Under the pieces are notes generated by a model. It had not been told where the DNA came from. It did no database searches and worked only from the letters and a program-made list of their open reading frames with translations. The translations under genes and the position numbers were made by a program. Shown here in pieces: positions 41,098 to 44,422 of a DNA stretch of 45,828 nt. This stretch comes from Armatimonadota bacterium (GTDB lineage: Bacteria; Armatimonadota; Zipacnadia; UBA1398; JAKPQA01): contig JAKPQA010000307.1 in assembly GCA_029547025.1 (NCBI GenBank), forward strand, positions 1 through 45,828. Reading direction: 5' to 3'. The first letter of the stretch is position 1, and each line of letters starts with the position of its first letter.

Positions 41098-41859
41098 TTG
41101 CGGTCGAGGTGTAGAGGCTTCACCCTGATCGAGCTGCTTGTGGTTATTGCGATCATTGCCATCCTAGCAGCCATCCTGTTCCCGGTCTTTGCGAAGGCGC
41201 GAGAGAAGGCGCGCCAGGCCTCCTGTCAGAGCAACCTCAAGCAGATCGGCTTGGCTCTGATGCAGTATGCGGGTGATTATGACGACTGCTACCCAGTCGG
41301 TCGCACCTGGTGCAACTACGCCAATGCAGCGCAGAACCTGCAGTACTTCGTCCAGCTTCAGCCCTACTGCAAGAACTGGCAAGTGTTCGCGTGCCCCAGC
41401 TGCCGGGCCAACAACTGCTCGAATGGCTCCATTCCGCACCATGCCGTCAATGCCATGATCAGTGCCGGCTACGCGCCGAGTACCTTCAGTCTCAGCTACG
41501 GGTACAGCGAGGCCATGTGGAACGCTTGGCGTCCCAACGGCGACTACGGCATCAACTGCGGTGGTTTCCCGACGAATCGGCACAAGATGGCGAACATCCC
41601 CACACCCGCGACTGCGCCGATCATCGCCGACTGCTACGGGCTCCTCAACAACGGCGCCCGCATCGGCTGGGCCAATGTCTGCGCCGCCGCGTGCAACGCG
41701 GACCGGCAAGTCGATGGCAACACGCGTCACAACGGTGGGTCCAATGTGTGCTTTGGTGATGGGCACGTCAAGTTCTTCAATGCCCGTGCCTGCGTGACGA
41801 ACTGGGACACGGGCCAGTGGCAGGCAGGATGCAAGTGGTGGGGTAACGGGCGCGACTAG
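41098..41859 (+). CDS. DUF1559-type pseudopilin, paralogue 1 (TTG start)
   Basis: The conserved reading starts at TTG 41098, behind GAGAGGAGAG, giving the leader MRSRCRG followed by [20 protein letters not shown], with Glu at +5 for prepilin-peptidase processing; an upstream frame to 40933 is not supported. The 253-residue protein continues [19 protein letters not shown] and [15 protein letters not shown]. The Cys-rich middle includes [17 protein letters not shown], and [16 protein letters not shown] is the HX9DG-type motif near the C-terminus. It ends [13 protein letters not shown]. The many paired cysteines suggest disulfides outside the membrane. Likely a pilin or pseudopilin subunit. Nearly colinear with two downstream paralogues. 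Confidence 0.92.
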
Positions 41860-42171
41860 AAGCGGCTGAGGCGCACAGCACCGGGGGTGGCGGCTCGAAC
41901 CGGCGTCCACCCCTGGTGCTGAGATTCGATGTGGGGGGACGGACCGACCCGCAGAGGTGCGGGGATCTGAGCGGAGCGGGAGTCCCGGCAGCGGCTCGGC
42001 TGTCGGGAATGGCTTCGCTTTGGAAAAAAGGCGAAGGAATCCGGTAGGGATGCCGGGAATTAGCCGAGGTACTCCAGTGGGTGCGCTGGGGGACCCGGCT
42101 GCGCTTATGCGCCACAGGCCGCACACCCCCAGCCGCGATCCACCCGGAGATCGAAGGGAGAGTGGGTTGTA
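41860..42171. other. Intergenic region between pilin paralogues 1 and 2
   Basis: A 312-base gap. It holds a terminator-like hairpin at 41876-41921 (listed), a small CTTCGC-type hairpin near 42009-42026, and at about 42069-42113 a segment resembling the sequence before paralogue 3. No further gene is seen. Confidence 0.45.
41876..41921 (+). terminator. Hairpin after pilin paralogue 1
   Basis: A 15-base arm at 41876-41890 (CAGCACCGGGGGTGG) pairs with 41907-41921 (CCACCCCTGGTGCTG) with one G-T pair and a 16-base loop. It begins 17 bases after the stop. No T tract follows. Confidence 0.6.
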
Positions 42172-42924
42172 TTGCGGTCGAGGCGTAGAGGCTTCACCCT
42201 GATCGAGCTGCTTGTGGTCATCGCGATCATTGCCATCCTAGCAGCCATCTTGTTCCCGGTCTTCGCGAAGGCACGTGAGAAGGCCCGTCAGGCTTCCTGC
42301 CAGAGCAATCTCAAACAGATCGGCCTCGCTCTGATGCAGTACGCCGGCGATTACGACGACTGCTACCCCGTCGGCTACACCTGGTGCAACAACGCCAACC
42401 CTCAGACCAACATCCAGTTTTTCGTCCAGCTCCAGCCCTACTGCAAGAACTGGCAGCTCTTCGCGTGCCCGAGCTGCCGGGCCAACAACTGCTACAACAG
42501 CTCCATCCCGCACCATGCGGTCAACGCTATGATCGACAGCGGCTATGCGCCATCCACGTTCAGCCTGAGCTACGGCTACAGCGAGCACATGTGGAACAGC
42601 TGGCGCACCGACACGGGCTGCAGCCGGTTCCCGACCAATCGCTACAAGATGGCCAACGTTCCCCAGCCGGCCGCCACGCCGGTCATCGCCGACTGCTATG
42701 GCCTGCTCAACAACGGCGCCCGCATTGGCTGGTCCAATGTCTGCGCCGCCGCGTGCAACGCAGACCGCCAGATCGACGGCAACACGCGCCACAACGGCGG
42801 CAGTAACGTCTGCTTCGGCGACGGGCACGTGAAGTTCTTCAACGCCCGCGCGTGCGTCTCCAACTGGGACCAGCGTCAGTGGACCGCGGGCTGCGGCAAC
42901 TGGGGTAACGGCACCGACGGCTAA
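42172..42924 (+). CDS. DUF1559-type pseudopilin, paralogue 2 (TTG start)
   Basis: TTG at 42172 follows AAGGGAGAG. Leader MRSRRRG, then [20 protein letters not shown]. The 250-residue product repeats the paralogue 1 layout, with [44 protein letters not shown] and [20 protein letters not shown], ending [10 protein letters not shown]. From the ribosome site through the first 60 coding bases the DNA is almost identical to paralogue 1, including synonymous positions and a rare CTA leucine codon in ATCCTAGCAGCC. This points to fairly recent duplication or strong constraint. The role should match paralogue 1. Confidence 0.93.
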
Positions 42925-42954
42925 GCCCTGTTCCCGAATCGGGTCGTTGCACGG

Positions 42955-42983
42955 TGGGGCCGCACTCCAGGGGTGTGGCCCCA
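42955..42983 (+). terminator. Hairpin after pilin paralogue 2
   Basis: TGGGGCC (42955-42961) pairs with GGCCCCA (42977-42983), and the inner GCAC/GTGT bases extend the stem to about 11 pairs with one G-T. It starts 31 bases after the stop; no T tract. Confidence 0.55.
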
Positions 42984-43034
42984 TCTGCGTCCGCCACCGA
43001 AACGGCCGGTGGAGGCTACGCGAGAGCCACGAGA

Positions 43035-43264
43035 ACCGGTGACAGTCACGAATGGCACGCACTTAGGGCTCGGCACCCACGCACACCCAACCGTAGGCGA
43101 GGCTTCAGCCTCGCGCGAAGTGGCTCTACAGGCCATTGTGAGCCGAGGCTAAAGCCCCGGCTACAGAGGTGATGCGACATACGCCTCTGGCATTGGGCTT
43201 AAATGCGGACCATTCGTGACAGTCACCTATTTCTTGAATTCTAGAAATAGTGAGTGTCACCGGT
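43035..43264. repeat. Nested inverted-repeat element (MITE/REP-like)
   Basis: The ends are a 15-base inverted repeat with one mismatch: ACCGGTGACAGTCAC (43035-43049) and GTGAGTGTCACCGGT (43250-43264). An inner inverted copy GGTGACAGTCACGAATGG (43038-43055) pairs with CCATTCGTGACAGTCACC (43210-43227), with weaker similarity further in. Next to it CTATTTCT-TGAATTCT-AGAAATAG (43227-43250) is a palindrome. In the centre two related motifs of type GTAG-CG-GGCTT-AGCCTCG lie in opposite orientation (43093-43115 and 43141-43164). No coding capacity and no clear target-site duplication. The structure fits a non-autonomous palindromic element such as a REP/REPIN or MITE. Confidence 0.65.
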
Positions 43265-43403
43265 TTTCGGCCATGTGCTGACCCAGGCCTGCGGGCGACG
43301 CCCGTTGACGCACTCAGACCGAGGCTGTCCATTCACGCCTCAGCCAGCCTGCGCCAGGGCTCCGCGAAGCTCTGCAAAGAATCATGAGCGAGCGAAGAGG
43401 GTA

Positions 43404-43432
43404 TTGAAGGAATCTGCGCCGTAGCCTAGAAT
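43404..43432 (+). promoter_or_regulatory. Candidate sigma-70 promoter for pilin paralogue 3
   Basis: TTGAAG (43404-43409), 17 bases, then TAGAAT (43427-43432): four to five of six matches in each box with ideal spacing. It lies in a locally AT-richer stretch, about 235 bases before the TTG start at 43667, so a long leader would result. Confidence 0.45.
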
Positions 43433-43666
43433 AGCATCAATGTTAGAGCACCTTTGTCCGGTATAGAACCTCGGAGGTGAGGCGGCGGCTAGCCCCAAGT
43501 TGGCCGCTTCGTTCTTGTAGCCAGAGCGTGGGCCGGTCGTGGACCTGCGTGGATTGATCGGGTGCTCCAGGAGGATCCCTGGAGGACCTGGCTGTGCTTT
43601 GGCGAAATAGGGAGCCGGCTCTCTTGCGCTTCGCGCTCGAGATCCAGGAGAGGAGAGTCGGTCCAG

Positions 43667-44422
43667 TTGCGGTCGAAACGCGCAGGCTTCACCCTGATCG
43701 AGCTGCTTGTGGTCATCGCGATCATAGCCATCCTAGCAGCCATCCTGTTCCCGGTCTTCGCCAAGGCTCGTGAGAAGGCCCGTCAGGCCTCGTGTCAGAG
43801 CAACCTCAAACAGATCGGCCTGGCTCTGATGCAGTACGCCGGCGACTACGACGACTGCTATCCCGTCGGCTACACCTGGTGCAACAACGCCAACCCTCAG
43901 ACCAACATCCAGTACTTTGTTCAGCTCCAGCCGTACTGCAAGAACTGGCAGCTCTTCGCGTGCCCGAGCTGCCGGGCCAACAACTGTGCGAATGGCTCCA
44001 TTCCGCACCATGCGGTGAACGACATGATCAACGCCGGGTACGCACCCAGCACCTTCAGCCTGAGCTATGGCTACAGCGAGCACATGTGGAACTCGTGGCG
44101 ATCAGCCGCCGACCTCGGTTGCGATCGGTTCCCGACCAACCGGTACAAGATGGCGAACCTGCCCACGCCCGCGAGTGTTCCCGTGGTCGCCGACTGCTAC
44201 GGCCTGCTGAACAATGGCCACCGCATCGGCTGGTCTAATGTCTGCGCCGCCGCGTGCAACGCCGACCGCCAGGTCGACGGCAACACGCGCCACAATGGTG
44301 GCAGCAACGTCTGCTTTGGTGACGGGCATGTGAAGTTCTTCAACGCCCGTGCGTGTGTCACCAACTGGGAGCAACACATGTGGACTGCCGGGTGTGGCAA
44401 CTGGGGTAACGGCATCGACTAG
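43667..44422 (+). CDS. DUF1559-type pseudopilin, paralogue 3 (TTG start)
   Basis: TTG at 43667 follows AGGAGAGGAGAG. Leader MRSKRAG, then [20 protein letters not shown] with Glu at +5. The 251-residue product has the same cysteine and motif layout as paralogues 1 and 2 ([48 protein letters not shown]) and ends CGNWGNGID. It is closer to paralogue 2 by eye (shared [14 protein letters not shown]). A strong hairpin follows at 44473. Expected at the inner membrane as a pilin/pseudopilin after leader cleavage. Confidence 0.93.

Follow-up and report, generated by a model that had tools for sequence, protein, structure and literature searches.

Nested repeats between two pilin-like genes

Between the second and third of three pilin-like genes, an Armatimonadota bacterium (GenBank assembly GCA_029547025.1, contig JAKPQA010000307.1, positions 1 to 45,828; hereafter the window, i.e., the whole stretch of 45,828 nucleotides that was analysed) carries a gene-less element at 43035-43264 in which several inverted repeats lie one inside another. 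What is this element, and how did it come by such a layout? A sequence-only reading had likened it to repetitive extragenic palindromic (REP) elements spread by REP-associated tyrosine transposases (RAYTs), and had named dispersed copies, target-site duplications and a RAYT or insertion sequence with matching ends as things to look for. We consider it probable, on the strength of sequence comparisons, that the locus is a nested composite of mobile elements: a REPIN (two inverted REPs) inside X, which resembles a miniature inverted-repeat transposable element (MITE), and X inside an older palindrome.

The repeats that the sequence-only reading had described were all present where it had placed them. 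The outer inverted pair (43035-43049 / 43250-43264) spans 15 nt with one mismatch and sits within a longer pair of 20 nt at 90% (43030-43049 / 43250-43269), while the inner pair around GTGACAGTCAC (43038-43055 / 43210-43227) is exact over 18 nt and can be extended to 28 nt at 86% (43038-43065 / 43200-43227). The CTATTTCT..AGAAATAG palindrome occupies 43227-43250 (92%), and the opposed GGCTT/AGCCTCG pair lies inside 43093-43113 / 43144-43164 (86%). Absent from that reading was the fact that the inner GTGACAGTCAC copies (43039-43049 and 43216-43226) are also identical in direct orientation. The foldback that it proposed exceeds chance, with a best inverted-repeat score of 16 vs no more than 12 in any of 200 dinucleotide shuffles, and a predicted DNA fold of -66.3 kcal/mol vs a shuffle mean of -35.8 (standard deviation (sd) 3.4; z = -8.87; 0/200 shuffles as good). 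No gene-like open reading frame (ORF) was seen over the window copy in a rough ORF call based on the GC content of third codon positions (GC3), in agreement with the same reading.

The element is not single-copy, and is dispersed at unrelated places. A search of the window's own genome (G000, a 6.3 Mb draft in 369 contigs, 96% complete with 4.8% contamination) yielded 79 partial matches from the best 40 of 46 first-look candidates, and these collapse to at least 29 places, two of which are diverged (C202b, 84% identical, and C97, ~74%). Ten of the places border on contig ends, and a single locus may in some cases have been counted as two halves. In the GC3-based call, 24/29 are clear of gene-like ORFs (several of these with short flanks only), 4/29 run into the start side of an ORF and one (C77) into the stop side. 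In 60 relatives, which at the closest belong to the same order, the sole match at E <= 0.001 was 29 bp long (best 12 candidates per genome); plasmids and phages gave no match to the element. The exact end pattern had 0 matches in the genome_contigs database, and a looser palindrome pattern had seven single matches, in unrelated taxa.

The window copy and its flanks can be divided as follows (coordinates, strand, feature and basis):
43030..43038, no strand: outer left arm of the putative target palindrome (CGAGAACCG); pairs with 43261-43269
43039..43049, no strand: T1, GTGACAGTCAC, first copy of the putative 11-bp target-site duplication; direct-repeat test
43050..43215, plus: X, a 166-bp gene-less MITE-like element; direct 11-mers and fixed alignment junctions
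43050..43066, plus: left terminal inverted repeat of X; 13/17 positions match the opposite end
43093..43164, no strand: 72-bp GTAG-type REPIN, two inverted REPs; same REPs flank a RAYT gene on contig C157
43093..43113, plus: left REP, GTAG head and hairpin; 0 mismatches
43144..43164, minus: right REP, GTAG head and hairpin; 1 mismatch
43199..43215, minus: right terminal inverted repeat of X; end comparison
43216..43226, no strand: T2, GTGACAGTCAC, second copy of the putative target-site duplication; direct-repeat test
43227..43249, no strand: Y, centre of the putative target palindrome (CTATTTCTTGAATTCTAGAAATA); inverted-repeat analysis
43250..43260, no strand: T3, GTGAGTGTCAC, other arm of the putative target palindrome; T-palindrome comparison
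43261..43269, no strand: outer right arm of the putative target palindrome (CGGTTTTCG); inverted-repeat analysis
43002..43038, no strand: repeat remnant, flank common to another copy; 43002-43049 matches C61:30391-30438 (90% over 48 bp)
43264..43317, minus: repeat remnant, flank common to other copies; 83% over 54 bp to the flank of copy C61a

Direct 11-bp repeats flank element X

We aligned 13 of the 16 two-ended copies, leaving out C296, C302 and C284, which have longer interiors. Mean column identity was 95%, and the 94 bp that X has besides the REPIN were common to all 13 copies, with the same junctions. Pairwise differences came to ~3% in the interior, 5% in the inner-left arm, 12% in the inner-right arm and 17-21% in the T columns; this excess of the T columns over the interior suggests that T lies outside the element, as expected of a target. 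The length of X is 166 bp in the window copy and 165 bp in ten more, with outliers of 153 (C49), 175 (C97), 204 (C296), 264 (C302) and 312 bp (C284). In C49 the terminal arms of X are complementary.

Direct repetition was assessed in the 17 of 29 copies that have both ends, the other 12 being truncated or lying at contig ends. The two 11-mers that flank X agreed directly at a mean of 9.71 of 11 positions, vs 8.53 (sd 0.22) when re-paired between copies, a value reached by 0/10000 permutations; their inverted identity (8.06 vs 8.47 re-paired) was not raised. The direct orientation was favoured in 13/17 copies and the inverted one in two, with two ties, and variants private to one copy stood on both sides of X (ATGACAGTCAC in C27, GTGGCTGTCGC in C49). 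We read the flanking 11-mers (GTGACAGTCAC in the window) as a putative 11-bp target-site duplication, not as REPs, so that this item of the sequence-only reading is supported by the permutation test on 17 copies. The idea that T is a terminal repeat belonging to the element, or a REP of another type, was overturned by this test together with the diversity of the T columns.

Other arrangements of X were also seen. REPs are spaced 135 bp apart in C84, C172, C203 and C354, where interiors of X stand in tandem, and 147 and 50 bp apart in the X arrays of C284 and C302, respectively; several tandem arrays run to a contig end, where their lengths are lower bounds. Elements with X-like ends in L086 (G000:C187; 200-470) and L152 (2878-3146, i.e., C108:53377-53645) hold other cargo, a TCAT(A/C)CTGAG..CTCAGGATGA inverted repeat where X has the GTAG REPIN. 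The 11-mers beside them are GTGACCGTCAC/GTGACGGTCAC and GGGTCTGGGGA/GGGTCAGGAGC, respectively; the inverted identity of the former pair is perfect, and that pair therefore does not favour direct duplication. A further candidate unit, a 135-bp cargo in the otherwise perfect palindrome GAATGG..ACTTAAGT..CCATTC, was rejected, as it has no empty form at up to three mismatches. A Mantel test of arms against cargo gave r = -0.31, reached by 4385/5000 permutations.

A GTAG-type REPIN at the core

Within X, GTAG-headed hairpins form an inverted doublet at 43093-43113 / 43144-43164, and REPs of the same sequence occur on both sides of an intact gene for a 182-aa RAYT on contig C157 (L043:4426-4974). 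The encoded protein scores 133 bits against REP_Tyr_transpos (NCBIfam NF047646; cut-off 80), and its best solved relative is the TnpA-REP structure 4er8 (E = 3.9e-13), with which it has an HxH motif and a tyrosine in common. We take this motif and tyrosine to be the catalytic residues of a RAYT. Judged by these shared REPs, the central GGCTT-AGCCTCG pair is a GTAG-type REPIN. The kinship with REPs proposed by the sequence-only reading therefore stands, with this pair, not GTGACAGTCAC as it had chosen, being the RAYT-linked REP; the RAYT gene is likewise present with matching REPs in the same genome, outside the window.

Among the REP sites listed at up to one mismatch, 67/76 lie in X copies, seven beside the RAYT gene and two elsewhere (C1:105865 and C161:20011). 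It thus appears that the REPIN spread as cargo of X, and solo dispersal, which is usual but not defining for GTAG REPINs, is not the pattern of these sites. In the 60 relatives, the GTAG REP pattern gave three single matches. A second PF01797 match in the genome (L044, G000:C246:3500-8500, at ~2305-2780) is RAYT-like with an in-frame stop, and has no GTAG REP of the C157 type nearby.

This core bears on a different account of the locus, in which it is an ordinary REPIN cluster, the RAYT having repeatedly put GTAG REPINs into existing palindromes without any carrier. REPIN clusters are indeed described, in part of PMC3116915, as arising by insertion into or next to REPINs. Given the 94 bp of X that the 13 aligned copies share outside the REPIN, with fixed junctions, and the confinement of most listed REPs to X, we regard this account as very improbable.

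The surrounding palindrome

The outermost layer would be the target, an older T-Y-T palindrome at one T arm of which X would have inserted, duplicating 11 bp. The palindromic nature of such a target would make the duplication resemble nested inverted repeats as well. When X and one 11-mer were omitted, 16 copies scored 7-33 for palindromy, 15/16 of them at 11 or more, a level reached by 2/400 random 120-mers of the window. Two sorts of target occur: some palindromes have T at their centre (as in C80, C91 and C49, among others), and in the longer T-Y-T ones X sits in one arm (as in the window copy and further ones); the target of the window copy is ~63 bp long, with T = GTGACNGTCAC. The outer flanks show inverted symmetry (15/4002 and 28/5000 permutations reach it), which palindromic targets would explain. 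Three copies (C80, C108 and C49) are placed between convergent gene-like ORFs by the GC3-based call, so some targets may be shared terminators.

By its sequence, the target palindrome resembles a TIRYT-type repeat. Passages of PMC3733652 and PMC6006769 describe TIRYT elements as RAYT-like genes with long terminal inverted repeats that share GGGGWSAS. In two relatives (G004 and G043), RAYT-like genes are flanked on either side by palindromes that contain the GACAGTCACCTATTTC motif of T-Y; these genes resemble the class so described, and the target palindrome resembles their surrounding repeats. The G004 protein falls below the NCBIfam RAYT cut-off (70.8 vs 80). When 25 of 30 RAYT-like loci were checked, considering the three longest inverted matches per locus, 13/25 had one whose arms bracket the gene and 12/25 had none. 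The palindrome pattern (up to two mismatches) is multi-copy in G004 (14+15), G007 (89+89), G027 (26+19) and G045 (26+29), vs 1+1, 0+0, 3+1 and 2+0, respectively, for control patterns. The GGTGACNGTCACCNATTT-pattern matches of G045, among those listed, form inverted pairs ~60 bp apart, like TIRYT-type REPINs. We speak only of resemblance because the window copy lacks two TIRYT features, the motif and a TIRYT gene in its genome: it reads GGTGACAG, one mismatch from GGGGWSAS (the right flank of C284, GGGGACAG, fits), and the search of G000 for TIRYT-like genes returned, at E <= 1e-10, the GTAG RAYT alone, which is 28% identical to the G004 protein.

An alternative follows the palindromes further and takes those of GTGACAGTCAC as the ends of the mobile unit, with a RAYT-like (TIRYT-type) enzyme recognising T and moving T-X-T or T-X-T-Y-T whole. 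The palindromes with GGGACAGTCACCTATTTC that flank RAYT-like genes on both sides in G004 and G043 agree with this, as does the abundance of the palindrome pattern above controls in G004, G007, G027 and G045. No direct repeats were found beyond the outer ends of 15 copies (4418/5000 permutations reach), as expected of such enzymes, and no unoccupied T-Y-T is among all 49 matches to the palindrome pattern in G000 (up to two mismatches). However, the T copies beside X match in direct, not inverted, orientation and carry copy-private variants, and the sole match to the G004 protein in the genome at the above threshold is the GTAG RAYT; we find the alternative unlikely.

Weighing a nested composite

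The reading as X inserted into a palindromic target, most likely by a transposase acting in trans that made cuts staggered by 11 bases in palindromic targets and pasted X there, has several points against it. Four of 17 copies do not favour direct repeats (C91 and C202a fit the inverted orientation better; C61b and C77 tie), the terminal inverted repeats of X (GAATGGCACGCACTTAG) are imperfect, matching at 13/17 positions in the window, and the inner-right arm is more variable than the inner-left one, for which we have no explanation. The palindromy score of C77 is 7, reached by 80/400 background stretches, and flanks re-paired between copies score 16.4, nearly as high as their own 18.4 (170/10000 permutations reach), because the targets themselves form a repeat family. 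The lack of an unoccupied T-Y-T also counts here, and part of the spread may therefore be of the whole composite. Covariation lends the fold no support, in that 0/40 of its pairs changed on both sides, and 93.8% of cells were paired across copies vs a shuffled mean of 93.9%.

The mover of X would probably be a cut-and-paste (DDE-type) transposase, again in trans; IS4-like families would be candidates. A scan for paired ends in 14 stretches with X-like ends revealed no transposase with matching ends, which is a further point against, and nine neighbouring ORFs of five such stretches matched no transposase family in Pfam, G000 not having been searched for DDE families (loci of the ORF scan: L087, L090, L152, L153, L155 and L158, with one or two ORFs each). 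Of the RAYT or insertion sequence with matching ends that had been looked for, the RAYT with matching REPs was thus found and a transposase matching the ends of X was not. The REPIN would once have entered an ancestor of X through the action of the RAYT, and would then have travelled inside X to at least 29 places.

The locus itself lies in a stretch (41100-44422) with three tandem DUF1559 pilin-like genes, each with an N-terminal methylation motif; the window copy begins ~109 bases past gene 2. The spacers of these genes are mutually unalignable, so there is no paralogous empty site to compare. The suggestion that the element helped to duplicate the pilin genes found no support, since the own-genome search shows one copy in the window contig, with T palindromes only there, and hence there is no pair of copies flanking a pilin gene between which recombination could occur. 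A regulatory RNA structure or terminator belonging to the pilin cluster, to which the strong predicted fold and the spacer position between co-oriented genes might point, has next to no likelihood, as the dispersal at unrelated places refutes it as the main explanation, there is no Rfam match at E <= 1 (42900-43560), the two other pilin spacers compared lack the structure, and the sole terminator-like and sole promoter-like sites of 42900-43700 fall outside the element. An effect of the insertion on transcription is possible.

Comparison with known systems

In its GTAG head, hairpin, inverted doublet and identity with the REPs flanking an intact RAYT gene, the core matches GTAG REPIN/RAYT systems, and passages of PMC8266576 describe REPs as recognised by TnpA-REP; it differs in that 67 of the 76 listed REP copies are inside a larger element with its own ends. 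Like MITEs, X is short, gene-less and dispersed, with terminal inverted repeats and a putative target-site duplication; unlike them, it has a REPIN as cargo and palindromic sites, and no autonomous partner appeared among the 14 stretches with X-like ends. Insertion sequences that target REPs, as described in part of PMC1525189, likewise place mobile DNA in repeated palindromes, whereas here the insert is gene-less and itself holds another type of REPIN. The TIRYT elements, as far as those passages describe them, differ from the window copy in the one base of GGTGACAG and in having a gene of their own kind, of which G000 gave none at the threshold above. Closest in layout are the REP dimers inside palindromes reported, in the passages concerned, for A. 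variabilis, T. roseum and H. neapolitanus (PMC3733652): there too a REP dimer is enclosed by a longer palindrome, whereas here a carrier and an 11-bp direct duplication stand between REPIN and palindrome. In a limited search of the open-access literature, we saw no account of a MITE-like element, itself within another palindrome family, as the main carrier of a REPIN population.

Implications

REPIN populations are usually credited to their RAYT. Here the carrier holds about nine in ten of the listed REP copies, and the number of REPs therefore need not measure RAYT activity. It is conceivable, and we put it forward tentatively, that REPINs can spread without their own RAYT, by way of a palindrome-preferring MITE family that exchanges palindromic cargo. 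The published REP dimers inside palindromes may be unrecognised carriers of this sort. A possible reason for the position of some of them would be that a palindrome-inserting transposon duplicates part of its target on both sides of its load.
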